DNA of 20,827 nucleotides, from positions 1 to 20,827 of the forward strand of contig JAJRTK010000260.1 in the NCBI GenBank assembly GCA_024278345.1. Direction: 5' to 3'. Under the pieces are notes generated by a model, which was not told the DNA's origin, did not search any database, and saw only the letters and a program-made list of their open reading frames with translations. The position numbers and the translations under genes were made by a program. The DNA is from a bacterium (lineage in GTDB: Bacteria; CSSED10-310; JAJRTK01). Positions 233 to 18,220 of the stretch are shown here, in pieces; the stretch's first letter is position 1; each line of letters opens with the position of its first letter.

Positions 233-1630
233 GTGACCCAAAATGACGCCCAGCACCAGCCAGCCCAGGATCGCAGCAGAGAATCCAGGCTGCTGAAGAA
301 TCAACCCGAGCCCTCTTCGGGCTCACCCGCCGAGAAGGGAGCAGCCCGACCGCGTCGTCGGCGGCCGGCAACGCGACAGAGGCCCACAACCTCGCGAAAC
401 AGCGGCAACCGCCAACGGCCTGCCTCTGAAAACAAGGCTCCTCGAAGCCCTGGATCCAAACAAACACCCACAGCTCGAAGGCGGGCGGCAACCCCGGCCT
501 CTGATCCTGAAAAAAGACGACCGACTACCCGGCGGTCCAAGAAAACGACCGGTGCATCACGTAGGCGAAGAGTCCCCGCAACAGACAGCCGCCCCCCGGG
601 GCACCAGCGACGTATCTCCCGGGCGCCCAAGACCGACGCCATGGATTCCACTCTCCAGCAAGCAGCCGATCCAAGGCTCTTTACCCGAAAGCCCCAACTA
701 GAAAGCGAAGAATCCACGCTCCAAGAGGCACCGGATCGAAGTCTATTCGCTTCAAAAAGTCAACCGCCAGATCTGGACTCCCCCCTCCAGGGAACACCTG
801 ATCCAAGCCTTCTAAATCCCCGTTCCCCGCAACACTACAAGGCCACTGGCAAAAGCCCGAGAACCGGATCTTCATCTCGGCCTGACCAGGCAGCGAGGAG
901 ACCAACGCCCCGCCACAAGATAGCTAAGAAAAGCCCGAGAGTACGCCAACCAACCGGGTCTAGTCCACCCGAAGCCACCTCGTCCACGGTCGGACCACAA
1001 GCACCCAGAACTTCCCCCATGGGGCCTCGGCCAGTTCCAGTCTCTTTCGAGGGCGCATCCACTGACTCTCGCTCCACCACAGCATCCGGGGCAAATCCCC
1101 CATCGATCCCCGTTTTCCCAAAGAAAACCTCCCATGGCTTCGCCGCTCCCAAGAGCGGGCCAGCCAGTCGTTTGACGCCACCACAGCCGCCCAGACATCC
1201 CAAGCCCACCAGTCCTTTCCGAGAAAAAGCTCCGCAAAAAACGCAGCCCTCCGCGGCAGACAGAACTCCGGCACCTCTGATGGAACAGTCAGCCACGGGG
1301 ACGACGGCAAATTCTCGAAAAAAGACCAAAGGTGATCCCAGGTTTTCCTACTCGTCGCGACCCGAGACGCTCAAAGAGGAAAAGCCTTCCTCCGCTCCGG
1401 CGGGCACCAGCCGCGGCGGGTGGATGCCCATACGAAAACCAGCTCCGGCACCTCCCCTGCTAACGGAGCGTTTAGGAACTGGCGGAAAAGCTACCTGCCA
1501 CGGCTGTGCAGGGCAAGGGATCTGCCCTCTCTGCTTCGGTACTGGCAGGGAACCGGGCAAGCTTTTTTGCCACGGCTGCCAGGGAACAGCCATGTGTTCC
1601 GTCTGTGGCGGAGACGGGGTCATCACCTAG
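233..1630 (+). CDS. disordered Pro/Arg/Ser-rich protein with C-terminal DnaJ-type CxxCxGxG zinc module
   Basis: A 465-residue protein of unknown function. The GTG start is chosen because GGGAGA (220-225) lies 7 nt upstream. Residues 1-415 are low complexity, basic and rich in Pro, Ser, Thr and Arg, with no signal peptide or membrane span. Within them, about residues 138-197 contain three imperfect tandem copies of a roughly 20-residue unit of the type S-x-LQ-x(3)-D-x-x-L-(F/L). The tail is structured: CHGCAGQG (422-429), CPLCFGTG (431-438), CHGCQGTA (446-453) and CSVCGGDG (455-462). These are the four Cys pairs of the DnaJ cysteine-rich zinc domain, but there is no J domain and no DnaJ C-terminal domain. 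By analogy the module could bind two Zn ions and mediate protein contacts. The stop codon overlaps that of the convergent lipoprotein gene. Shadow frames exist on the minus strand, but the zinc motifs support this strand. Confidence 0.75.
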   Translation: MTQNDAQHQPAQDRSRESRLLKNQPEPSSGSPAEKGAARPRRRRPATRQRPTTSRNSGNRQRPASENKAPRSPGSKQTPTARRRAATPASDPEKRRPTTRRSKKTTGASRRRRVPATDSRPPGHQRRISRAPKTDAMDSTLQQAADPRLFTRKPQLESEESTLQEAPDRSLFASKSQPPDLDSPLQGTPDPSLLNPRSPQHYKATGKSPRTGSSSRPDQAARRPTPRHKIAKKSPRVRQPTGSSPPEATSSTVGPQAPRTSPMGPRPVPVSFEGASTDSRSTTASGANPPSIPVFPKKTSHGFAAPKSGPASRLTPPQPPRHPKPTSPFREKAPQKTQPSAADRTPAPLMEQSATGTTANSRKKTKGDPRFSYSSRPETLKEEKPSSAPAGTSRGGWMPIRKPAPAPPLLTERLGTGGKATCHGCAGQGICPLCFGTGREPGKLFCHGCQGTAMCSVCGGDGVIT

Positions 1631-2433
1631 GAGCCGCCTGCCGATCCACTCTTGGTTTTGGTCCGTGGACCCGCCGTCGATTCGACGCTGATCTTCTCTG
1701 CTGTCCCAGCCACCGAACCAGCCCAAGCCCTGACCTTTGATCCCGACTTTCCAGCGCGGGTCTCCTCCTCAGGGCCAGTTTTGGAACCAGCCACATCCTT
1801 TCCCTTCGGACTGTCGGTCGATCCCGTGCTGGAGTTTCCTTCGGGTCGGGGCACTTCCCCATCTCCTAGTTCCCGGAGCCACCGGCGAACGCGGTCGGCA
1901 TCGGGGCTGCCGGGTTCCAACACGATATAGCGCTCCAGCAAGCGCCTCCCCTGCTCCAGTTGGTCTAATCTGCGAACGTACAGAAGGCCAAGATTCAAGA
2001 CTGCTCTGGAATCATCGGGATCCGAGTCAATTAGTTTTTCGTAGACCCGTTGGGCCTCCCGCGGTCTTCTAGCCAATTCCAAAGCAACCGCCAAGTCGAG
2101 ATCGACATCCCGGTCTCCCGGCTCCTGCCTTCGGGCTGATTCCAATGCCTCCACCGCCAACCCAGGAAGCCCCAGTTTCGCGTAACAAAGGCCAAGCTTG
2201 TGCTGTAGGCCCGGAAAATCTGGCTTTTCCTGACGGATCAGCTTGAACCGCCTGAGCGCCCCCGCGTAGTCTCCTTCCCGCAACTGATCGAGGCCTCCTC
2301 GATAGACCGCGGCGAGCTCGGCGGGATTCAACCGAATCCGTTTCGCGGCACATCCCGAGCCAAACGACACCATGAGGAGACAAGTCACCAACAAGCCCAA
2401 CAAAGGTCCCTGTTCGCTGCCGTTAGCCCGCAT
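1627..2433 (-). CDS. TPR-repeat probable lipoprotein
   Basis: 268 residues. A hydrophobic N-terminus (residues 10-26) ends at Cys28 in the context FGSGC. This is a plausible but non-canonical lipobox, because position -3 is Gly instead of an aliphatic residue. About four TPR units follow (approximately 44-75, 76-108, 109-142, 143-176), with typical features such as GDYAGALRRF and ARRPREAQRVYEKLI. The C-terminal 85 residues are Ser/Gly/Lys-rich and probably disordered. TPRs bind protein partners, so an envelope scaffold is likely. The ATG at 2433 overlaps the upstream DUF192 stop (TGATG) and has GGAG about 8 nt before it; a TTG one codon earlier is less likely. This is the last gene of the five-gene FHA operon. 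Its stop codon shares the palindrome CTAG with the stop of the convergent gene, leaving no room for a terminator between them. Confidence 0.85.
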   Translation of the reverse strand: MRANGSEQGPLLGLLVTCLLMVSFGSGCAAKRIRLNPAELAAVYRGGLDQLREGDYAGALRRFKLIRQEKPDFPGLQHKLGLCYAKLGLPGLAVEALESARRQEPGDRDVDLDLAVALELARRPREAQRVYEKLIDSDPDDSRAVLNLGLLYVRRLDQLEQGRRLLERYIVLEPGSPDADRVRRWLRELGDGEVPRPEGNSSTGSTDSPKGKDVAGSKTGPEEETRAGKSGSKVRAWAGSVAGTAEKISVESTAGPRTKTKSGSAGGS

Positions 2434-2846
2434 CAAGTTTGCTCCAACTGTAGCTTATCGCCTGGTTGTGTACCACTGAGCTCCACGATTCCAACGGGAA
2501 GCTCCAAAACCGAATGAGCTCCACGCCCTCCGGACCAGCTCCGCCAAATCGCCCACCACGGCTGCGGTGCCAGCCCCGGAAAAACGCACGTCACCTCATA
2601 GTTTCTTGAGAGGAAAATGGCATCGATGGAAAAACTCATTCCACACATGTGGATTTGTTTGCCGGGCACAATCCAGAGCCCTTCCCCCTCCTCGAGGCCC
2701 GAATAGGACAACAATCCAAAGCCTCGCGCAAAAAACGTAGAGGCCACCTTTGCTCGGGTCGCCAAAACCGTATTTCGGCTAAGATTCTCCACCTTCAACA
2801 TAGCTTCGGCCTCCAACACCGGGCCAAGGAGGCCCACTTTTTTCAT
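2433..2846 (-). CDS. DUF192 family protein
   Basis: 137 residues covering most of a DUF192 domain. Visible family features are RGFGLL (41-46), LEEGEGLWIV (51-60), the core around IHMCGMSFSIDAIFLS (65-80) where relatives have the fuller W-M-K-N-T type signature, and LELPVGIVELSGTQPGD (114-130) at the end. The function of DUF192 is not established; many members are exported, but this one shows no signal peptide from the ATG at 2846. A second ATG at residue 16 would give a shorter protein that keeps the whole domain. No clear Shine-Dalgarno is seen. The start overlaps the preceding FHA gene by ATGA, which points to translational coupling. The next gene, the TPR lipoprotein, overlaps its stop. 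Confidence 0.85.
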   Translation of the reverse strand: MKKVGLLGPVLEAEAMLKVENLSRNTVLATRAKVASTFFARGFGLLSYSGLEEGEGLWIVPGKQIHMCGMSFSIDAIFLSRNYEVTCVFPGLAPQPWWAIWRSWSGGRGAHSVLELPVGIVELSGTQPGDKLQLEQT

Positions 2847-4342
2847 TCCGTTTTTTTGAGTTTCTCCGCCGCAATTTTGTGGTAGCGGTGGGCGGGGTTG
2901 GGAATCATTTCCATGACTCGTTTCCAGTAATTCCGGGCTTTGTCCAGCTTTCCTAAATCCTCGTAAAACCGGGCTTTTCCCAAAAGTCGTTTCGCGTTTT
3001 CCTCTTCGACGCTCTGTTTGGGCTTCACCGAAGACCTCCGCCGGCGTATCTCCTTGCCCAGCTCTTCAGCGCGGGCAAGAGCAGTGCTTCCTCTTGCTCC
3101 CGGCGTGGTCCGCAACCGCTGCAAGAACTCTTCAGCCTGGCCCCATTCGCGCATTGCCCGCGAACTGTTCCCAAGCTCCTGGGCCTCGAGACCTGTCCGA
3201 TAGGCGACCTCGATTCCCCGCGAAAGCTCCCGAATCTTCTTTTGCCTCCGCGAGCGCAAACGATCTCCGGCACGACGTCTTTCCACGTCTCTCAGCAACT
3301 TGGTCGCCGTCGCATCTCCGGGCTCCATTTGCAACACCTTTTGGAGCTCCTTCCCCGCTTCCTCGTAGCGCCGCGCATCCACCAAGCTCTGAGCCCGGGC
3401 AAGCCCCCTCTTGACTCGGAACGCATGCTGCTGTTTCAACTGGTCGGCTCGTGAATCAACCTTGCCCAGTGCGCTTTTCAACCGATCGACCAAAGCTAGG
3501 AGCTCTGGATCTCCACCGGTCGAAGGCATCGAACGCCTGATCCGGGCAATCATTTTTTTCAGAGCCGCTCTCGCGGGTTCCAACGCCTCCTCTGGAAGTA
3601 CCGCTAACTCCGCGGAACCGTATTTCACCATCAATCCCTGCACTTCCGAAAGGATCCTGGCCCGGAGCTGGCCAGCCTCTTCGGCACGAGTCTCCGTAAA
3701 GAGGTCCGCCTGCCCGGCATCGTCTTGCTCATGAACTCCGTCGAGAGGGTTGTCCATCTCATGAATTCTACGGCTGGAATCGGAAAAAGAGATGGTCAAG
3801 AGCAACAGCAACACCAACACCCCCAAACCACCCAACATGAGCTTCAGGCGTTTTCCGGAATCTGGCTGACCCACGAGAGCAATTTCTCCGGCCGATGATT
3901 TGGAAATGACCTCCACTCGCTGCCCGACAGAGGATCCCTGGAGCGACCGCCTCCCCGGCAAAGGCCGCCCTAGGGCATTTCCTCCATCGTCTTCGTCTTC
4001 TTCGACAATTTCGTATCTTTCCGGATCACGACGGCCAGATCGGAGACTCTCCCTCATGACCTCAAGCCGCGAGCGCCCAAGCTCGATCACATCTCCGTCC
4101 CGTAGCTGGACATCGGACTGGATCCGCCCGTTGACTCGCGTGCCGTTGCGGCTTCCCAAGTCGGTGAGAAGGAGATCCGAGCCATCGGCCAGAATCTCGA
4201 AGTGACGCTTGGAAACCCTCTCGTCATCCAATACGATGTCACAATCAAGGGCCCTGCCCACCACGACGCAAGCATCCACCAACGCCACATCCCGAACCAT
4301 CTTTCCCCTGTGGGAGATCCTCAGTTTCCAGTCCTTCGCCAT
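2843..4342 (-). CDS. FHA-domain membrane protein with extracytoplasmic TPR/coiled-coil region (FHA 3)
   Basis: 499 residues. The N-terminal FHA domain (about 5-97) keeps the phosphothreonine-binding signature: Gly29-Arg30, the S-x-x-H motif at 44-47 and Asn66-Gly67 in DLGSRNGTRVNG. A charged linker with an acidic patch (112-119) leads to one membrane span (about 168-187). Outside lies a long helical region with TPR-like units around 312-345, 375-410 and 449-481. There is no signal peptide, so the FHA domain should face the cytoplasm and the helices the periplasm. FHA domains bind phosphothreonine peptides made by Ser/Thr kinases. GGGGAAG lies about 7 nt before the ATG at 4342. The gene follows the second FHA gene by 22 bp and overlaps DUF192 by 4 bp. 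The partner phosphoprotein cannot be named from sequence. Confidence 0.9.
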   Translation of the reverse strand: MAKDWKLRISHRGKMVRDVALVDACVVVGRALDCDIVLDDERVSKRHFEILADGSDLLLTDLGSRNGTRVNGRIQSDVQLRDGDVIELGRSRLEVMRESLRSGRRDPERYEIVEEDEDDGGNALGRPLPGRRSLQGSSVGQRVEVISKSSAGEIALVGQPDSGKRLKLMLGGLGVLVLLLLLTISFSDSSRRIHEMDNPLDGVHEQDDAGQADLFTETRAEEAGQLRARILSEVQGLMVKYGSAELAVLPEEALEPARAALKKMIARIRRSMPSTGGDPELLALVDRLKSALGKVDSRADQLKQQHAFRVKRGLARAQSLVDARRYEEAGKELQKVLQMEPGDATATKLLRDVERRRAGDRLRSRRQKKIRELSRGIEVAYRTGLEAQELGNSSRAMREWGQAEEFLQRLRTTPGARGSTALARAEELGKEIRRRRSSVKPKQSVEEENAKRLLGKARFYEDLGKLDKARNYWKRVMEMIPNPAHRYHKIAAEKLKKTE

Positions 4343-4364
4343 GATTGAGCTTCCCCGGCAACGC

Positions 4365-5291
4365 CTATTGAAGACCGACGGCTCGTCGGTCGAGTGCAGC
4401 CTGTTTTTCCCGGGCGGACTCCATCAATATTTGCGCTTTCTGGCCAATCGCATCCTCTGGCCCAGCAAGTTTCAGGATGAGGTCGAGCTCCCGAACCGCC
4501 TGAGCATAGCGAAGGTTCGAGTATTCTTCCCTCGCCACCTGATAGTGGTATGCGATCTTTTTCTTGAGTTGCTTGATTGCCCACTCCAATTGGGACTCGC
4601 AAGCAGAACAGCCGGGATTGTCGCGAAGCGACGTCTTGAACTCTTCGATGGCCTCTAGGAGGTTCCCCGCATCGAAAGCATTGATTCCTCGTTGAAGATG
4701 AAGCGACGCCTGCCGGATCTGATCGTCGGTGGGCACTTGAGTTCCCGGATCAAAGCTCTCAACGGCCAGTGTCCCGATCTCTACGATCTGACCGTCTATC
4801 CGCACTTTATCCCCATCGCCGCCGCCTGGTGTCTGCAATCCCAACAAAATGATCACCAAAAGCAAGAGAAAAATCACGATCCCATAAATGCCCATACGCA
4901 CACGCGCACCACTATCGAGTTGGGTGCTTCTACTCAAGAGATCGGCCTGGTCTCCAATTTGCTGAGCCTGCTTGCCCTGGGGTTTTGCGGAGAACACCAA
5001 GATCGACTTGCCGACGCGAATCTGGTCCCCGTCTCGGATCTCCGCCCGCTCGATGACTCTCCCGTTCACTCGAATTCCCGTCTTCGATCCCAGATCCTCG
5101 ATGTCAAAACCAATCCCATCATAGATGATCCGAGCATGGTGCCCCGAAACCGTCGGATCGTCGATAACGATATCATTGGAAGAATGCCGGCCCAAAGTCA
5201 CGGCCTCCACCAAAATCTTGAAAACGAGATCCTGCAAGGGACCTTTATACCCAACAAGATTGACATCAAATCTCTCCGAGAACCTCTTCAT
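4365..5291 (-). CDS. FHA-domain membrane protein with extracytoplasmic TPR region (FHA 2)
   Basis: 308 residues from the ATG at 5291. This start is preferred because GGGGTGA lies a few bases upstream; an in-frame TTG at 5312 would overlap the upstream gene by 17 bp. The FHA domain (about 10-100) has Gly34-Arg35 and S-x-x-H at 49-52. The usual Asn of the N-G pair is Thr71 (GSKTGIRVNG), which may alter phosphopeptide binding. One span lies at about 134-153 (IVIFLLLLVIILLG). TPR-like helices follow at about 195-228 and 247-277. A CSAC motif (228-231) sits on the predicted periplasmic side and could form a disulphide. The architecture matches the next gene (FHA 3) and suggests an ancient duplication. 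It is the second gene of the operon, 4 bp after the first. Confidence 0.9.
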   Translation of the reverse strand: MKRFSERFDVNLVGYKGPLQDLVFKILVEAVTLGRHSSNDIVIDDPTVSGHHARIIYDGIGFDIEDLGSKTGIRVNGRVIERAEIRDGDQIRVGKSILVFSAKPQGKQAQQIGDQADLLSRSTQLDSGARVRMGIYGIVIFLLLLVIILLGLQTPGGGDGDKVRIDGQIVEIGTLAVESFDPGTQVPTDDQIRQASLHLQRGINAFDAGNLLEAIEEFKTSLRDNPGCSACESQLEWAIKQLKKKIAYHYQVAREEYSNLRYAQAVRELDLILKLAGPEDAIGQKAQILMESAREKQAALDRRAVGLQ

Positions 5292-5295
5292 ATCT

Positions 5296-7167
5296 TCACC
5301 CCATTTGCTCAATTACGAGCACCGTCACCAACCGAGCACCCTGGGAAAAGCTCACCGCCCGAGCCTCCAGCGCGTGTCCTACACGCAATCTTTGAACACA
5401 GATCTCCCTGGGAGCCAACCTCGATTCCCGCAAGAGCTCCATGATCTCCGCCAAACAAGAGGCGGAAGCGAACAGATCCAATAAATGTTGTCCGGATGCC
5501 CCCCCCCCCCGACATCCCAACAGCTCCATCGCCGCCGAGTTGCACACGTCCACCAATCCTCCGCCATCGGCAATCACCAAGCCCTCTCCCAGCAAATCCG
5601 CCGTCCGACGGACAACCTCCAGTCCACCAGACGGCCCATCCATTCGCCCACTAGCCGCTTGGCTCGGCTGAGCCGCCCTATCGAGGACCCGATTGACGGC
5701 ATCGACTAATTCATTGACCCGGCGATCCGTTGTGGGCGGAACCTCCAGCTCCAAATCCTGCTTCAGCGCCAAGTTCAGTTCTTGCGCCATCTGCCGAAAA
5801 GGACGATGGCACTGTTTTTCCAGAAAAATCGCCACGACCAGTGCCAAGGCCCCAAAAAAGAGCCCGAACATCACCACCAGCGTTGCCATGTGCCTTTTCT
5901 TCTCTCGAAGATAGCTCACTCCGAAATCAACGACCGCGGTCCCATAGCGCTGGCGCCCAAAAGCGATGGGAACGGAAAAGACTCCACCGGACGGGGTCAA
6001 CTGCATCAGGAACTTCTGGGCATCCGCCGCTCGTTTCAAGAGTTGTGAACGAACTCCACGCCTCTCCTCAGGAGCAACCACCTCACCACCAAGCCCCAAG
6101 ATCAAGACCTCATTGACGCCTCGCTCCCTAGATATCGGCTCAGTGATCAATCCCACGTCCCCCGCCCGAAGCTTGGGCAAATTCATTTCCGCCACCAAGT
6201 AAGCCAGGGTCCTTGCCCGAGATTTGGCCTCGACGCCCATCATGTCTTCGGCCAATCCGATCAAGCCGACGCCGATGAAAAGAGTTACTCCCACGACCAG
6301 AAGAAGAAGCCAAATCGAAAAAGCCATCCGAAAATTGACTTTCACTCGCCGCCGCGGTTTCCCGGAACGGCGGTCACGCGCAACCCGATGGGCAGGTGTT
6401 CCACCGGTTTCTTCTTCCTGATCGTCAAACCCCCAATCCTCCCCGGAAGGCGTAGAATCCTCCTCTGAGACCAATCGCTGGCGCTTTGCCGGCGCAACTG
6501 GGGAGACCCTTCTCACTGGCGGCACTCTCTCCTCCACCATTCCAGGTGTTGCCAGGCGATCCTTGCGGCGCACTAACGAATCTCGAGACATTTCCTCCGT
6601 CGGCTCCCCGCGCCTTGGCCGGACCTTACGTTCCGATGCACGCCCAGGTTTGGGTATCTCCGACAGCCTTTGTGACGACTTTCTCCGGATTCGCTCCTCT
6701 CGTTGCCAAAGACTGGAGCCAGTGCTTCCACGCCCATTACCGCGATCCCCGGCACTAATTTTGAGTTCTTCGTCCCCTGCTCCGGCATGCATCGGACCGG
6801 CAGCACCAACCACCATGGGAAGATTTCGGCGACTCGACGCCTCATGGTCGATCTCCGATACGACCGTCAAATCACTTGGATCAGAGGAAAGACGATAGAG
6901 AAGCTGATAGTCTCCTACCGACACGATATCTCCATCTTCGAGTCGTTTCCTTTCCACCGGCACACCATCGACCCGTGTGCCATTCATGCTCCCGAGATCG
7001 AGTACTACGGCGCTTCCTCCGGACACTTCGAGCCTGGCGTGCTCGCGGCTAATCCCGTCGCCGTCAAGGCAAATCGCGTTCGTCGGAAGCCGACCAATCA
7101 CGTAGCTTCCGTCATCAAGCTCCATTCGCCTCGGAGGCCGCGGACCCGTAATGGTCAACTCATGCAT
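5296..7167 (-). CDS. FHA sensor protein: FHA, two membrane spans, HAMP-like and PAS regions (FHA 1)
   Basis: 623 residues from the ATG at 7167, which has GAAGGGA just upstream; an in-frame extension to 7287 would run across the promoter and is not favoured. Order of domains: FHA (3-92) with Gly25-Arg26, S-x-x-H at 40-43 and Asn62-Gly63; a basic disordered linker (95-275); span 1 (281-304); an extracytoplasmic region of about 120 residues; span 2 (427-449); a HAMP-like helical linker (450-500); and a PAS-like domain (about 525-620). No histidine-kinase, cyclase or GGDEF output domain follows, so the protein probably signals by protein contacts. It is the first gene of the five-gene FHA operon. 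The PAS domain contains a run of 12 G on the coding strand (codons for Arg553 to Ala557) where slippage would shift the frame. Confidence 0.88.
   Translation of the reverse strand: MHELTITGPRPPRRMELDDGSYVIGRLPTNAICLDGDGISREHARLEVSGGSAVVLDLGSMNGTRVDGVPVERKRLEDGDIVSVGDYQLLYRLSSDPSDLTVVSEIDHEASSRRNLPMVVGAAGPMHAGAGDEELKISAGDRGNGRGSTGSSLWQREERIRRKSSQRLSEIPKPGRASERKVRPRRGEPTEEMSRDSLVRRKDRLATPGMVEERVPPVRRVSPVAPAKRQRLVSEEDSTPSGEDWGFDDQEEETGGTPAHRVARDRRSGKPRRRVKVNFRMAFSIWLLLLVVGVTLFIGVGLIGLAEDMMGVEAKSRARTLAYLVAEMNLPKLRAGDVGLITEPISRERGVNEVLILGLGGEVVAPEERRGVRSQLLKRAADAQKFLMQLTPSGGVFSVPIAFGRQRYGTAVVDFGVSYLREKKRHMATLVVMFGLFFGALALVVAIFLEKQCHRPFRQMAQELNLALKQDLELEVPPTTDRRVNELVDAVNRVLDRAAQPSQAASGRMDGPSGGLEVVRRTADLLGEGLVIADGGGLVDVCNSAAMELLGCRGGGASGQHLLDLFASASCLAEIMELLRESRLAPREICVQRLRVGHALEARAVSFSQGARLVTVLVIEQMG
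5499..5510 (-). repeat. homopolymeric G12 tract inside the FHA/PAS sensor gene
   Basis: Twelve C on the plus strand are twelve G on the coding strand, within codons CGG GGG GGG GGG GCA. The present length keeps the frame open. One extra G would redirect translation to a stop ending at 5309, and one fewer G to a stop ending at 5379. Either change replaces the end of the PAS-like domain. Tracts of this size are prone to polymerase slippage and also to sequencing error. Confidence 0.9.
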
Positions 7168-12565: not shown

Positions 12566-15500
12566 TCAGGGCACGCGGACCTGAAAAAAAACGGTCTGGT
12601 GGCTGCGCACCCGTACTCCATCCTTCGTGAGCGGCTTATAGCGAGACGCCTTGGCCGCCGCGATGAAGGCATTGTTGAAGTCTTTGAGCTCCTGCTCGCT
12701 CAGAATTTTCGCCAGTTGGGCATTCCTCTCTGCTCCACCTAGAACCTGCAGGATTCCCGTCACCTCACCCTCCATGGAAATCTCAGCCCGCGCAAAAAAC
12801 CGCACCGAAAGCGACTCGTGCTTCCCTAGTGCTCGCTTGATCTTTCGGCGGAGTTTCTTGCTGAGGGATACTTTTCCCAAGCGGATATCTTCCAGTGGGT
12901 TGTCGGGAAACTGCACTAGATCATTTTCTCGAACTGGCCGACGGGTCGGTGTTGGGGCGGTTCCTTGACCGGGCTGATAGGAAGATCCTCTCTCCATCCC
13001 GGCCACGGCTGGCGCCACCGCATCTCGAGGCAAACCGGATGCAACCTCCGTCTCCCCTCCTTCGAAGGCAGGTTGGCGACGATGCGCCGGAGTTGGAGTT
13101 CTTCCCGCACGCTTGACGATGATCACGGCATCGCGATCTCGCTGGCTGCGAGACGAAGAAGGCGTGTCACCGTAGACGACCCTCGGACGTGACCCGGAAC
13201 GAGATGCTCCCGGGACAGTCCTGGAAACAGCAGGCTGTCGCTCGATCCGCCGCGGCTTCTTCGCAGTCTTGCGAGTTGGTTTGGTGCGCGGTCGAATAGT
13301 GGGTGTTGGAGGGGATGTAGGTTCCACAACTGGTACGGCGGCTGGCACGGGTTCGCGGGAACCTTCCGCTTCAAGAGAAGCCGCCGCTCCATAAGATCCG
13401 TCCGGGGTCAAGAGGCGCCGTGAGCTCTGTTCGTCTTCCGCAGGTAAGCTGGTTTCATGAGCGGAAGAAGAACCCGCCCAAGAATCCGTGGACTCCACCT
13501 CTAAATCGGGAGGCTGCCTCAGGCGAGAGGAAAGATCCTCCGTATTTGGCGGCTCGTTCTGAGGCAGCTCAAACTCGTCTTGCACCAGAGTCCCTTCCTC
13601 GGCCGGGACATCCGAAGCCCCATGACCTTGGTAGAAAATTACCATGTAAAGGGTGAGACCGACCACGCAAACGACCATGATCAGAATGAGTGCATAGAGC
13701 CAGGTGGGAGCTCCTTGCTGCGATAGTTGCGTGCGCTCGACACCCGTGGGCAGCTCCACGGAATCCTCGCGAATCCTGGACGGCGGCTGGCGAGAAGGTC
13801 GAGCGGCGGGACGGCGACGAGGCTCGGGTCTCCGCTCGCTCTTTACGCGTGGCGCGGGTTCAATGGCTCCGGCACTACTATCCCCAAAGACGCGGCTTGG
13901 AAGATCCACTTGGGCAATCGATTCAGCCGTATCCTGGTGAAACTCGTCCTGGAACAGATTCTGGATGTAGCTCCCAAGGTTGAGGGCTCCCAGGGCAACT
14001 TTTCTTTTAAAAACGAATTTGTCGAGAGCCCGCTTCATCAATCCCGCATCTTGGTACCGATCCGCGGGATCCACGGCAAGCGCTTTTAGGATAATACGCT
14101 CCAGCTCATGGGGCATATCCTTCGCATACTGGGACGGCTCCACGATATTCGGATCACGAACTTTCTTTAGGATGTCAATCTCACTCTTTCCGGCAAACAA
14201 CTTCCTGTCCGTGAGCATCTCGTAAAGAATATTGCCGACACTATAAATATCCGACCGGTGATCGATCGGTTTTCCCCAAGCTTGCTCAGGGGACATGTAA
14301 AGGATCTTCCCCTTGAGAGCCCCCGCACGAGTAATGGAAGCTTGGCGGGCAGCTTTCGCGATACCAAAATCGACGAGCTTCACCTCGCCTTCGTAGGAAA
14401 TCAGAATATTCTGAGGACTGACATCGCGATGGACAAGCTTCAGTGGGTTACCGGACATATCGCACTTCCGGTGTGCGTAATCCAAAGCCTTGCAGATCTT
14501 CGCGGCGATGGTTACCGCCTTCTCAATGGTCATCGGCAGTCCCATTTGCCGAGCCCTGTGCAAGATCTGCTTGAGGTTCTTGCCATGGACGTACTCCATG
14601 GCGATGTAAAACGAATTGTCTACCTCCCCCAGTTCATAGATCTGAACGATGTTCGTGTGGGTCAATTGGGCCGCCAGCTTGCCCTCGTCAATGAACATCT
14701 TGATGAACTCTTCATTGTCTGTCAGATGAGGCAGAATCCGCTTGAGAGCCACAAGCTTTTCAAAGCCTTCCACACCAATCTGCTTGGCGCGAAAAACCTC
14801 GGCCATCCCTCCCGTGGCAATCTTCTTGAGCAGTTGAAACTTCCCGAAGACCTGACCTTCTCTCCTTACGGCTGGAGGAGCGGGAGATCTGGTCGCCGAG
14901 GGATCGGGAGGAACCTGACGCCGGATCATCTCCACTGGAGTGACCGCGACCGTGGGCCGATGGCTGCCTTGGTTCTTTCGTTTCGGTTCCCGCCGCGGGC
15001 GGACGTCTGCACCGAAACTTACTCCGGCAACCTCCGAAGCAATCGGCGGACGACCCTGTTCTTCTTCTTCCGGCGCGTCCATTACATCTGACAGGAAGTC
15101 CAAATTATCCACAATCCTGTCAATGTCTTCTTCGGCAACATCAGACAAGCCAGCGATAGCTCCAGGAATAACGGCCTCGTCCCCGCCTACCGACGCTTGC
15201 CCGCGATTGCGACCAGCAGCGGATGCTCCGATGCCGTTGTGACCTGCTAAAGCCGATCGACTTCCCATTCCTCCATTTGCGCTGGACCCGGGTTTTCCTG
15301 GAACCGTGAGTTCACTCCGCATCAGCCCGGCCAGAGTTTCCTCCAGTATCTGTTCCAGGTGATCTTGGCTGTCAGAGGATCGCTTGGTCCTGGCATAGCG
15401 AGGAGCACCGGCATTCACCGGCGGAGACAAGCGGCCCCCGACCTCGAGGCTGACAGAAAAATGCTTCTGCAGTAAAGAGATGAGTTTCTCCTCGTTCAAG

Positions 15501-15838
15501 GGCTTGACTAAGAAGTCATCGGCCTTGAACTTGCGCATGGCCTGACGCTTGTATTTTTCGTTCTTATAGAGCTTGGTCGTGATGACCACGGGAATCCCCG
15601 CGCCGCCGTCGCTCGATTTTATCGATTTGCAAACTTCAAATCCGTGCAGCTTTGGAAGCATCGCAGCCAAGATCACCATGCCCGGCTGCTCCCGACGAAA
15701 TGTTTCCAACGCCGCGACACCATCCAGGGCCGTGTAGACTTCAAAGCCCCGTCCCTCCAAGATCAACCTGGCGTCCTCAAGACTTCGCACGTCATGGTCT
15801 ACGACCAGAATCCCCGCATTGTTCGCCTTTGGTGCCAT
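12566..15838 (-). CDS. transmembrane Ser/Thr protein kinase with degenerate receiver and TonB-C-like end
   Basis: 1090 residues. Residues 9-127 form a CheY-like receiver that keeps Asp14/Asp16, Thr87/Thr88 and Lys112, but Ala58 occupies the phospho-acceptor Asp position (VILAAMLP). A variable linker leads to a Hanks-type kinase (332-612) with all key residues: glycine loop ATGGMAEVF, Lys366 in VALKR, Glu385, HRDVSPQN (Asp472, Asn477), DFG (490-492) and SPE (516-518). The HRDVSPQN form is common in myxobacterial Pkn kinases. One span (712-736) is followed by a Pro/Arg/Ser-rich stretch and a compact end (about 985-1090) resembling the TonB C-terminal fold (MEGEVTGILQVLGGAE, ASRYKPLTKDGV). The kinase is thus cytoplasmic with an extracytoplasmic sensory end. 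It should be active and is a candidate writer for the window's FHA readers. It is the first gene of an operon with the GT-C gene and mnmA. Confidence 0.93.
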   Translation of the reverse strand: MAPKANNAGILVVDHDVRSLEDARLILEGRGFEVYTALDGVAALETFRREQPGMVILAAMLPKLHGFEVCKSIKSSDGGAGIPVVITTKLYKNEKYKRQAMRKFKADDFLVKPLNEEKLISLLQKHFSVSLEVGGRLSPPVNAGAPRYARTKRSSDSQDHLEQILEETLAGLMRSELTVPGKPGSSANGGMGSRSALAGHNGIGASAAGRNRGQASVGGDEAVIPGAIAGLSDVAEEDIDRIVDNLDFLSDVMDAPEEEEQGRPPIASEVAGVSFGADVRPRREPKRKNQGSHRPTVAVTPVEMIRRQVPPDPSATRSPAPPAVRREGQVFGKFQLLKKIATGGMAEVFRAKQIGVEGFEKLVALKRILPHLTDNEEFIKMFIDEGKLAAQLTHTNIVQIYELGEVDNSFYIAMEYVHGKNLKQILHRARQMGLPMTIEKAVTIAAKICKALDYAHRKCDMSGNPLKLVHRDVSPQNILISYEGEVKLVDFGIAKAARQASITRAGALKGKILYMSPEQAWGKPIDHRSDIYSVGNILYEMLTDRKLFAGKSEIDILKKVRDPNIVEPSQYAKDMPHELERIILKALAVDPADRYQDAGLMKRALDKFVFKRKVALGALNLGSYIQNLFQDEFHQDTAESIAQVDLPSRVFGDSSAGAIEPAPRVKSERRPEPRRRPAARPSRQPPSRIREDSVELPTGVERTQLSQQGAPTWLYALILIMVVCVVGLTLYMVIFYQGHGASDVPAEEGTLVQDEFELPQNEPPNTEDLSSRLRQPPDLEVESTDSWAGSSSAHETSLPAEDEQSSRRLLTPDGSYGAAASLEAEGSREPVPAAVPVVEPTSPPTPTIRPRTKPTRKTAKKPRRIERQPAVSRTVPGASRSGSRPRVVYGDTPSSSRSQRDRDAVIIVKRAGRTPTPAHRRQPAFEGGETEVASGLPRDAVAPAVAGMERGSSYQPGQGTAPTPTRRPVRENDLVQFPDNPLEDIRLGKVSLSKKLRRKIKRALGKHESLSVRFFARAEISMEGEVTGILQVLGGAERNAQLAKILSEQELKDFNNAFIAAAKASRYKPLTKDGVRVRSHQTVFFQVRVP

Positions 15839-16040: not shown

Positions 16041-16541
16041 CTAGATCTCAGGCAGCGTGGACACACCGGCCCCGCCGCCGATATCACTTCCGAGCAGAAT
16101 GCCGGTCTCGTCTACGTAGAACGAGCGAATCCCGGTCCTCTGATGGACGATGGGATGCGCCTCAGCGGACCATGAGTAATAGGCAACTCCCGCCGAACCC
16201 ACGGGCGTTAAATTCCCTGCCAGCAAACTGAAGTTATATCCAGATTTGAGGCCTGCCCCCAAATCATCGGAAATGTAGCGAACGCCACCAGCACCCTGAC
16301 CGGACCGAAGCCCTTCCAGCGTGTTTGAGTACGAGTGGGGCGACGAGTTGTTGTTGTAATCCGTCTGCGCCGCGGCAATCGTCTTCAACGCGCCAGAAGC
16401 CGAGGCCTCATTTGCCGACATTCGCGACCTGAGAAGGCTCGGAATGGCAATGGCTGCAATAATACCAATAATTGCGATCACGATGAGGAGCTCGATGAGC
16501 GTGAAACCACGATCACGACGAGTCCGCAAAATTGACAACAT
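16041..16541 (-). CDS. type IV prepilin-like protein (PilA-type major or minor pilin)
   Basis: 166 residues. A short basic leader (MLSILRTRRDRG) is followed by the prepilin peptidase site G/FTLIE, with the conserved Glu at mature position 5. The class III hydrophobic helix LLIVIAIIGIIAAIAIPSLL follows. The globular part has the ANEASASGALKTIAAAQTDY helix extension typical of many non-enterobacterial pilins, then a Gly/Ser/Tyr-rich beta region. The length is normal for a type IVa pilin. AAGGAG lies 8 nt before the ATG at 16541. Prepilin peptidase and assembly genes (pilB, pilC, pilD) are not in the window. A terminator follows, so it is probably monocistronic. It could also be a pseudopilin, since no secretion-system context is visible to decide. 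Confidence 0.93.
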   Translation of the reverse strand: MLSILRTRRDRGFTLIELLIVIAIIGIIAAIAIPSLLRSRMSANEASASGALKTIAAAQTDYNNNSSPHSYSNTLEGLRSGQGAGGVRYISDDLGAGLKSGYNFSLLAGNLTPVGSAGVAYYSWSAEAHPIVHQRTGIRSFYVDETGILLGSDIGGGAGVSTLPEI

Positions 16542-16915: not shown

Positions 16916-18220
16916 TCAGTCAATGATGACATCCGCACTCGCATAATCAGGGACAAACTCATCCTGCATGTCATCGACTCCACCGCCATTCGCCAGCTCT
17001 TGCGCCGCCCCGGCGAGCTCATTGCCCTCGGTACCCACACCTGTGATCTGGACCACACCAGCAACGATGGATCCCGTCAAGACTCCACTGTCCTCATCGA
17101 AATAGCTCCCTTCCGAAGAAGCTTGCGAGCCGGACCCTTCTCCTGCGTCGAAGCCTGGATCATCAGCGGTGCCGGCATCGCCCCTGTCACCACCCGAATC
17201 TGACCCGTCCGCGGGCGCATCGGCGCCACTATCCTCGTTCTCTTCACTGTCGAGATCCGAAAACGGGTCCGTATCATCATCCTCATCCGCATCATCAAGA
17301 TCACCGAAAGGATCGAGGCTATCCTCCTCCTCCTCTTCGGAAAGATCACCAAATGGGTCATATTCCGTCGATTCATCAGGCTCCGGCTTGCCCTTTCCAG
17401 AGCCCTCGCCATCCGCCGCCGCCCCCCCCATTCCTTCACCAGGATTCTCGGACTCATCCGGGCTGGCATCGGAATCCTGGTCTTCATCGCCGGCGGCTCC
17501 CGACTCCTCTTCTTCCTCTTCACCGGTAACGTATTCCCCACCGAAGGCGGGATCACTGACTTCGATTTTCCCGGAGTAATCCTCCTCGTCAGGCTCGCCC
17601 TCAGCCTGCTCGCCCTCAGCTTGTCCGCCAAAGTCAAAGTTTTCGGAGCCGCCGGCCACAGCCTCCTCCTCGCCCTCTTCAGCACCATCTTCTGCATCAG
17701 GGTCCTTGGATGTCGTCTCCCGGGATCCCTCTCCTGAGCCTTTCTCGCCAGCAGGACCGTCTTCCTCCTTTGCGCCCGTCTTCTCCTCCCCCTGCTCATC
17801 GGAGCCCACTGATTCATCGGAATCCGCATCGAACGCTCCCTCTGGATCGGGTTCATCAGGCACCGCGTCATCGACGCCAGAGTCGCCTTCGCCGTCGGCA
17901 ATGCCATCGCTCGCCAGATCAGATGAAGCACCGGCAACTTCTTCTCCCGTTCCGCCGTCTTCGCTGGCAATGGAAGCCAGCAAGTCCATTTCGTCATCAT
18001 CGGCAGACATTCCATCGGAAACTGTTTCCGGTTCCACAAGGCCTTCATCGAAATCGTAAACATCCTTGGCCTCGTCGGTGACAATCTTCTTGAAAACAAA
18101 ACTGTCTCCAGATGAGGACTGCCCCAGAGCCACTTCGCCATTCAACCAGAGAATGCCCAAGAGAACCGCTCCAAAGCGAAACCAGGAAGCCTGAGAAATA
18201 GCCGAGGCAAATCGTAACAT
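16916..18220 (-). CDS. secreted, extremely acidic low-complexity protein with DPF(G/S)DL repeats
   Basis: 434 residues, function unknown. A signal peptide is visible (hydrophobic FGAVLLGILWL, probable cleavage after VALG near residue 33). The mature chain is dominated by Asp, Glu, Gly, Ser and Ala, contains no Cys, and has a very low predicted pI. Residues 287-331 are three tandem 15-residue repeats, each starting X-DPF(G/S)DL followed by eight or nine mostly acidic residues. A short less acidic module (about 372-412, LTGSIVAGVVQITGVG) ends the protein. The composition suggests a disordered polyanion that could bind Ca2+ or other cations at the surface or in matrix, but no known calcium-binding motif (RTX, EF-hand) is seen. 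GAGGA lies about 8 nt before the ATG. Long shadow frames on both strands here reflect the biased composition. Confidence 0.8.
   Translation of the reverse strand: MLRFASAISQASWFRFGAVLLGILWLNGEVALGQSSSGDSFVFKKIVTDEAKDVYDFDEGLVEPETVSDGMSADDDEMDLLASIASEDGGTGEEVAGASSDLASDGIADGEGDSGVDDAVPDEPDPEGAFDADSDESVGSDEQGEEKTGAKEEDGPAGEKGSGEGSRETTSKDPDAEDGAEEGEEEAVAGGSENFDFGGQAEGEQAEGEPDEEDYSGKIEVSDPAFGGEYVTGEEEEEESGAAGDEDQDSDASPDESENPGEGMGGAAADGEGSGKGKPEPDESTEYDPFGDLSEEEEEDSLDPFGDLDDADEDDDTDPFSDLDSEENEDSGADAPADGSDSGGDRGDAGTADDPGFDAGEGSGSQASSEGSYFDEDSGVLTGSIVAGVVQITGVGTEGNELAGAAQELANGGGVDDMQDEFVPDYASADVIID

Follow-up and report, generated by a model that had tools for sequence, protein, structure and literature searches.

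The window, the whole stretch of 20,827 nucleotides under analysis (contig C184 of genome G000, which comprises 550 contigs and is 88% complete), holds an operon of five tightly packed minus-strand genes at 1627-7167. Three consecutive genes encode membrane proteins with FHA domains, which are phosphothreonine readers, and these are followed by genes for a DUF192 protein and a TPR lipoprotein:

5296-7167, minus strand: FHA/PAS receptor, with a cytoplasmic FHA domain (6913-7104), disordered linker, transmembrane (TM) region, extracytoplasmic Cache-like domain, TM region, HAMP-like helix and PAS domain
4365-5291, minus strand: FHA/TPRb, with an N-terminal FHA domain (5010-5201), one TM region and a short extracytoplasmic TPR-like region
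2843-4342, minus strand: FHA/TPRa, with an N-terminal FHA domain (4076-4267), one TM region and a long extracytoplasmic helical/TPR region
2433-2846, minus strand: DUF192 protein, presumably cytoplasmic
1627-2436, minus strand: TPR lipoprotein, located where a TadD-type secretin pilotin would stand (putative role)

The original prediction had described this set as a single operon, and Pfam matches, predicted membrane spans and spacing all agree with it; the intergenic gaps are, in order, 4 bp, 22 bp and then 4-bp overlaps, as it had given them. Since the 5' end lies 150 bp from a divergent mlaC gene and the 3' end meets a convergent gene (233-1630), the five genes form a closed unit. The receptor starts at ATG 7167, behind a GGAG/GAAGGGA stretch that is a plausible ribosome site, and ATG 5291 is the most likely start of FHA/TPRb, over TTG 5312. 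The convergent gene encodes a protein rich in proline and arginine that has a CxxC zinc-finger repeat at its end, and the stop codon of this gene overlaps the end of the gene for the TPR lipoprotein on the opposite strand. Farther out at this contig end, positions 20-176 are an interspersed repeat, which translates as GGTGILPVAGW... At least six other contigs of the genome carry copies of it at 81-100% identity, some of them partial, and the repeat probably broke the assembly. The window also encodes, at 16916-18220, a protein of 434 aa that is extremely acidic, of low complexity and signal-peptide-like at its start; its gene adjoins a type IV pilin gene.

Domain structure of the five proteins

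The three FHA domains match Pfam FHA far over the cut-off (E-values 8.6e-16 for FHA/PAS, 5.6e-19 for FHA/TPRb and 8.9e-20 for FHA/TPRa), and all three proteins retain the phosphothreonine-binding signature GR...S..H. Together with the predicted TM regions, these matches bear out the claim that each protein combines an N-terminal FHA domain with at least one membrane span.

In the FHA/PAS receptor two real TM regions are predicted, at about 279-313 and 418-445. Its AF2 model has confident FHA, sensor and PAS domains, with a disordered linker between the FHA domain and a long TM helix, after which come an alpha/beta sensor, the second TM helix, a HAMP-like helix and the PAS domain; we call the sensor Cache-like, a reading of the secondary structure of the model. 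The model shows a PAS fold despite a Pfam score under the cut-off (17.4 vs 22.6 bits), and PAS scores over the cut-off in the orthologues of genomes G003, G137 and G185. These parts correspond to the extracytoplasmic loop, HAMP-like and PAS regions proposed for one of the FHA proteins. The protein carries no enzymatic output domain (no kinase). Among PDB entries, the WalK sensor kinase model 9a5d matches the model as a whole best; as the superposition of the whole chain is poor (TM-score 0.3), this is a match of parts. WalK has its sensing parts in the same order, followed by a histidine kinase at the end.

Extracytoplasmic TPR/helical regions had been claimed for the other two FHA proteins, and both have them. 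FHA/TPRa, with a single TM region predicted at about 163, matches Pfam TPR_2 (2.1e-7) and in its AF2 model shows the FHA domain, the TM region and confident helical repeats at about 212-498; FHA/TPRb has its single predicted TM region at about 134, followed by the short TPR-like region. FHA/TPRb matches L041 over its full length (30%, 2e-25), and its orthologues occur in Tad clusters. The architecture of FHA/TPRa was considered as a marker of Tad loci and rejected, since its double-FHA relatives in Myxococcota lay outside tad loci in all ten places examined; FHA-TM-TPR architecture is not Tad-specific. These Myxococcota proteins (L296-L305) have a double FHA, one TM and TPR, and at L297 the gene adjoins genes resembling a Bat (aerotolerance) operon.

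The DUF192 protein (Pfam DUF192, 7.8e-14) showed neither signal peptide nor TM region, and its relatives in the PDB, 3m7a and 3pjy, are solved proteins of unknown function. A DUF192 search of viral contigs gave no match. The TPR lipoprotein matches TPR_19 (3.2e-19) and has an approximate lipobox, FGSGC. TadD is a lipoprotein with five TPRs and is the secretin pilotin of Tad systems (PMC10499894). A TadD role of the TPR lipoprotein is suggested by its class and position rather than by a specific sequence match, a comparison with the PDB returning only generic TPR proteins and MamA/PEX5.

A Tad operon in a phylum-mate and its counterparts in G000

Tad (Flp) pili are surface fibres used for attachment. 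The best relative of the DUF192 protein by whole-genome search lies in G003, a phylum-mate listed as Candidatus Schekmanbacteria in the genome collection (contig JACPHN010000012.1). G003 carries a complete Tad operon as one unit on one strand, in the order Flp-TadE-CpaB-CpaC-TadZ::TadA-TadB-TadC-FHA/PAS-FHA/TPR-FHA/TPR-DUF192-TPR lipoprotein, where Flp is a pilin-like gene, and the five genes of the window correspond to its 3' end with order and strand kept. The first two FHA pairs align over their whole length, and the third pair does so over both the FHA and the TPR part. DUF192 and the TPR lipoprotein likewise match their G003 counterparts (for the TPR lipoprotein, 26% over 16-223, 1.5e-16).

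Family searches located T2SSE, T2SSF, RcpC and TadE genes on G000 contigs other than the window. Contig C3 carries CpaC-TadZA-TadB, with identities to G003 of 36/48/53%; the CpaC/RcpA secretin matches Secretin at 1.5e-29, and the TadZ::TadA fusion (L086, 12188-14491) matches T2SSE at 7.4e-63. TadC lies on C61 (52% to G003). On C287 are a pilin-like gene, TadE-like genes and CpaB/RcpC (RcpC 2.6e-24); the TadE match is 6.7e-4, and the adjoining small pilin-like ORF matches weakly, to DUF4244 only. Searches of C184 with T2SSE and T2SSF gave no match: the window holds no tad gene, and the module is not contiguous with the tad core in G000. By orthology to G003, the only link that joins the pieces, the Tad operon of G000 is divided among C287, C3, C61 and the window, and each of the four pieces keeps the G003 order. 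Unrelated genes stand on both sides of the pieces on C3 and in the window, so the operon is not interrupted there by the end of a contig; the shortness of C61 makes the cut there less certain.

Two further groups of genes in G000 were observed. On C61, the lone tadC is faced by three convergent genes, one for an FHA protein, one kinase-like and one for a receiver (L088, 156-3593). A second Tad cluster, on C163 (L049, 562-12522), encodes CpaB, CpaC, an FHA-fused TadA, TadB, TadC, an FHA-TM protein, a triple-FHA-TM-TPR protein and a TPR protein. It is FHA-rich and Kil-like in make-up, and in pairwise comparison its genes are mostly more distant from G003 than those of C3 and C61.

From gene order and homology, we consider it likely that the five genes are the accessory and regulatory 3' end of an operon for a Tad pilus (tight adherence or Flp pilus, type IVc), set apart from core genes that lie on three other contigs of G000. 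The original prediction had not recognised the set as a described system. The idea of a system with no described relative is not supported: the same five genes stand in the same order behind tadZA-tadB-tadC in G003, as an accessory part of the Tad pilus machine, so that the set does in part belong to an already described secretion system.

Recurrence behind tadC in other genomes

A gene-neighbourhood check agreed with the further claim of a multi-gene membrane system that links FHA proteins to envelope assembly, and the neighbourhood is kept in other phyla; the distribution given here is from sampled genomes. A small HMM scan, made on retrieved regions, placed a triad of FHA proteins with two, one and one TM regions behind TadC in G040, G185 and G274, with DUF192 between; G224 has DUF192-FHA-FHA behind TadC, and G195 the receptor alone. 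A profile (A4) built from six receptors was run on 386 genomes as a held-out test, and beyond the six it matched along the receptor together with an FHA domain in just two genomes: in G137 over the full length (2.4e-60), and in G050 over the receptor part (6.9e-58), where part of the FHA region is masked in the sequence. Both of these receptors lie directly behind TadC (in G137 with DUF192 between), with an FHA pair and a PP2C phosphatase. A third match along the receptor part, in G065, was rejected as a sensor with neither FHA domain nor Tad context. Receptor orthologues are present in Tad clusters of seven other genomes; in 146 Myxococcota genomes, with at most ten candidates scored in each, A4 matched FHA parts and no full-length protein. 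By sequence comparison, conservation of the FHA triad behind tadC in other lineages is shown.

The same is shown, very widely, for DUF192. Flanking DNA of its 80 best relatives held tad genes (TadA or TadB/C) near the DUF192 gene in 46, a fraction that does not apply to DUF192 at large, as the 80 were the best-scoring of a profile that included Tad-linked members. In 31 of the 80 the gene directly follows tadB/C. By our own estimate, assuming one or two Tad loci per genome, chance would give about one such case or fewer in 1.17 Mb.

Three genomes have a gene for a PP2C phosphatase or a kinase next to their FHA genes, and in G224 a Hanks-type Ser/Thr kinase is encoded immediately behind them; the window's operon itself includes neither kinase nor phosphatase. 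The kinase at 12566-15838 in the window had been suggested as a partner of the FHA proteins, and we rejected it as a dedicated partner: its gene lies in a separate transcription unit, and the genome has 95 Pkinase matches in all (E <= 1e-20). With these and 34 FHA domains in 6.06 Mb, the bacterium, as judged from its genome, is very phosphothreonine-rich. The gene at 12566-15838 is an unusual fusion of a response-regulator receiver, a Ser/Thr kinase, a TM region and a TonB/AgmX-like C-terminal part.

A possible phosphothreonine switch of the pilus

Two alternatives concern what the module serves. Once part of a Tad operon, it could now serve another envelope machine, for example MlaC/TolC or a type IVa-like pilin near 16041, as the lack of tad genes in the window, the divergent mlaC and tolC genes 150 bp away and the pilin on the same contig would suggest. 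However, G000 keeps orthologues of the remaining Tad operon, with its pieces in G003 order, and in the other genomes examined neither mlaC nor tolC was noticed next to the module; we regard such a change of machine as improbable. That the FHA proteins belong to a type VI secretion (TagH/Fha) or an FtsZ/cell-division FHA system is barely conceivable. A weak match to TagH (TIGR03354) reaches 30-31 bits vs a cut-off of 120 and is confined to the FHA domain; nothing matches beyond that domain, no type VI or division genes lie nearby, and the full-length orthologues are located in Tad loci. Membership in T6SS, T3SS, GltG or FhaB families was rejected generally, the FHA part alone matching, far under curated cut-offs.

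How the FHA proteins would work admits a reading that we hold to be unlikely, though less so than either of these: they may be structural, like the FHA-like cytoplasmic domain of the T3SS protein SctD, and scaffold the Tad platform with no phosphothreonine reading and no switch. Pfam Yop-YscD_cpl indeed scores over its cut-off in all three proteins, one FHA domain has lost its loop Asn (the SxNG loop of FHA/TPRb, the middle protein, has T instead of N), and the operon contains no kinase. Against this, the receptor orthologues all share, without variation, the GR/S/H residues of phosphothreonine binding, the phosphothreonine-binding FHA domains of GarA, FhaA and OdhI outrank the T3SS protein PscD among structural matches, and PP2C or kinase genes are neighbours of the FHA genes as described above. 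A search with the T3SS SctD model TIGR02500 gave no full-length match (13-18 bits vs a cut-off of 86).

Returning to the Tad accessory reading, we infer that the module acts as a phosphothreonine switch of the pilus, a proposal that we consider about evenly balanced; function throughout is read from context and domain type. The FHA/PAS protein would be an inner-membrane receptor whose Cache-like domain detects a ligand or state outside and whose PAS domain detects one inside, with output through its own FHA domain. The ligands of the three FHA domains would be phosphothreonines that a Hanks-type kinase adds and a PP2C phosphatase takes away, on TadZ/TadA, TadC or one another as candidate targets. 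Binding would gather or release the inner-membrane platform and so switch the assembly of the pilus on or off. With their TPR parts, FHA/TPRa and FHA/TPRb may bridge the periplasm towards the secretin, of which the TPR lipoprotein would be the TadD-like pilotin, and DUF192 would be a small cytoplasmic factor, probably acting at TadC. More tentatively, and with somewhat less confidence than in a switch as such, we propose that this arrangement is conserved: an FHA receptor with an outside Cache-like and an inside PAS domain and no kinase output, two FHA/TPR bridges, DUF192 and a PP2C/Hanks-kinase pair may together set when and where the pilus is built.

If this is true, it would be a signal-transduction architecture with a sensor whose output is phosphopeptide binding instead of catalysis. 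The assignment to Tad links the DUF192 family, and a family of receptors that has no name yet, with a known machine. It also offers a testable answer to the Kil question, the role of the many FHA proteins in Tad-like loci, and shows that the parts of a Tad operon may be recognised even when they are dispersed, the pieces looking like orphan systems. In the T6SS PpkA-PppA-Fha switch, a kinase, a PP2C phosphatase and an FHA protein control an envelope machine by threonine phosphorylation; that switch belongs to another machine and has no sequence relation to the present proteins beyond the FHA domain.

Among known systems, the module is closest to the Tad/Flp (type IVc) pilus, in that its five genes are contiguous with flp-like, tadE, cpaB, cpaC, tadZA, tadB and tadC in G003 and its TPR lipoprotein fits TadD. 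Unlike here, standard described loci have no FHA triad and no receptor, and the operon of G000 is in four pieces and includes DUF192. In the open-licence literature we found no paper combining Tad pilus, FHA domain and TPR, nor a description of the FHA/Cache/PAS receptor and ordered triad, and a single paper placing DUF192 with Tad: the Tad operon of Bulleidia extructa has a DUF192 gene near its 3' end, and the passage on it mentions no FHA triad (PMC12786226). FHA domains in Tad-like clusters are already known, from Kil and class III CpaF, and the receptor and ordered triad are hardly described. The Kil apparatus of Myxococcus xanthus, a Tad-like killing apparatus with over-represented FHA proteins and a proposed contact-signalling cascade, resembles the G000 system in its abundant FHA proteins and in a Tad core divided among separate gene clusters (PMC8460266). 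It differs in that its ATPase KilF bears an FHA domain, while the TadZA of C3 has no FHA match and the C163 ATPase is FHA-fused, and in reportedly having no TadD. Among the candidates scored in the 146 Myxococcota genomes the receptor profile found no full-length match, so the receptor probably does not belong to Kil. Class III CpaF, an FHA-fused Tad ATPase (PMC12019362), likewise attaches a phosphothreonine reader to the Tad inner-membrane motor, whereas the FHA domains of the window are carried on separate membrane proteins.
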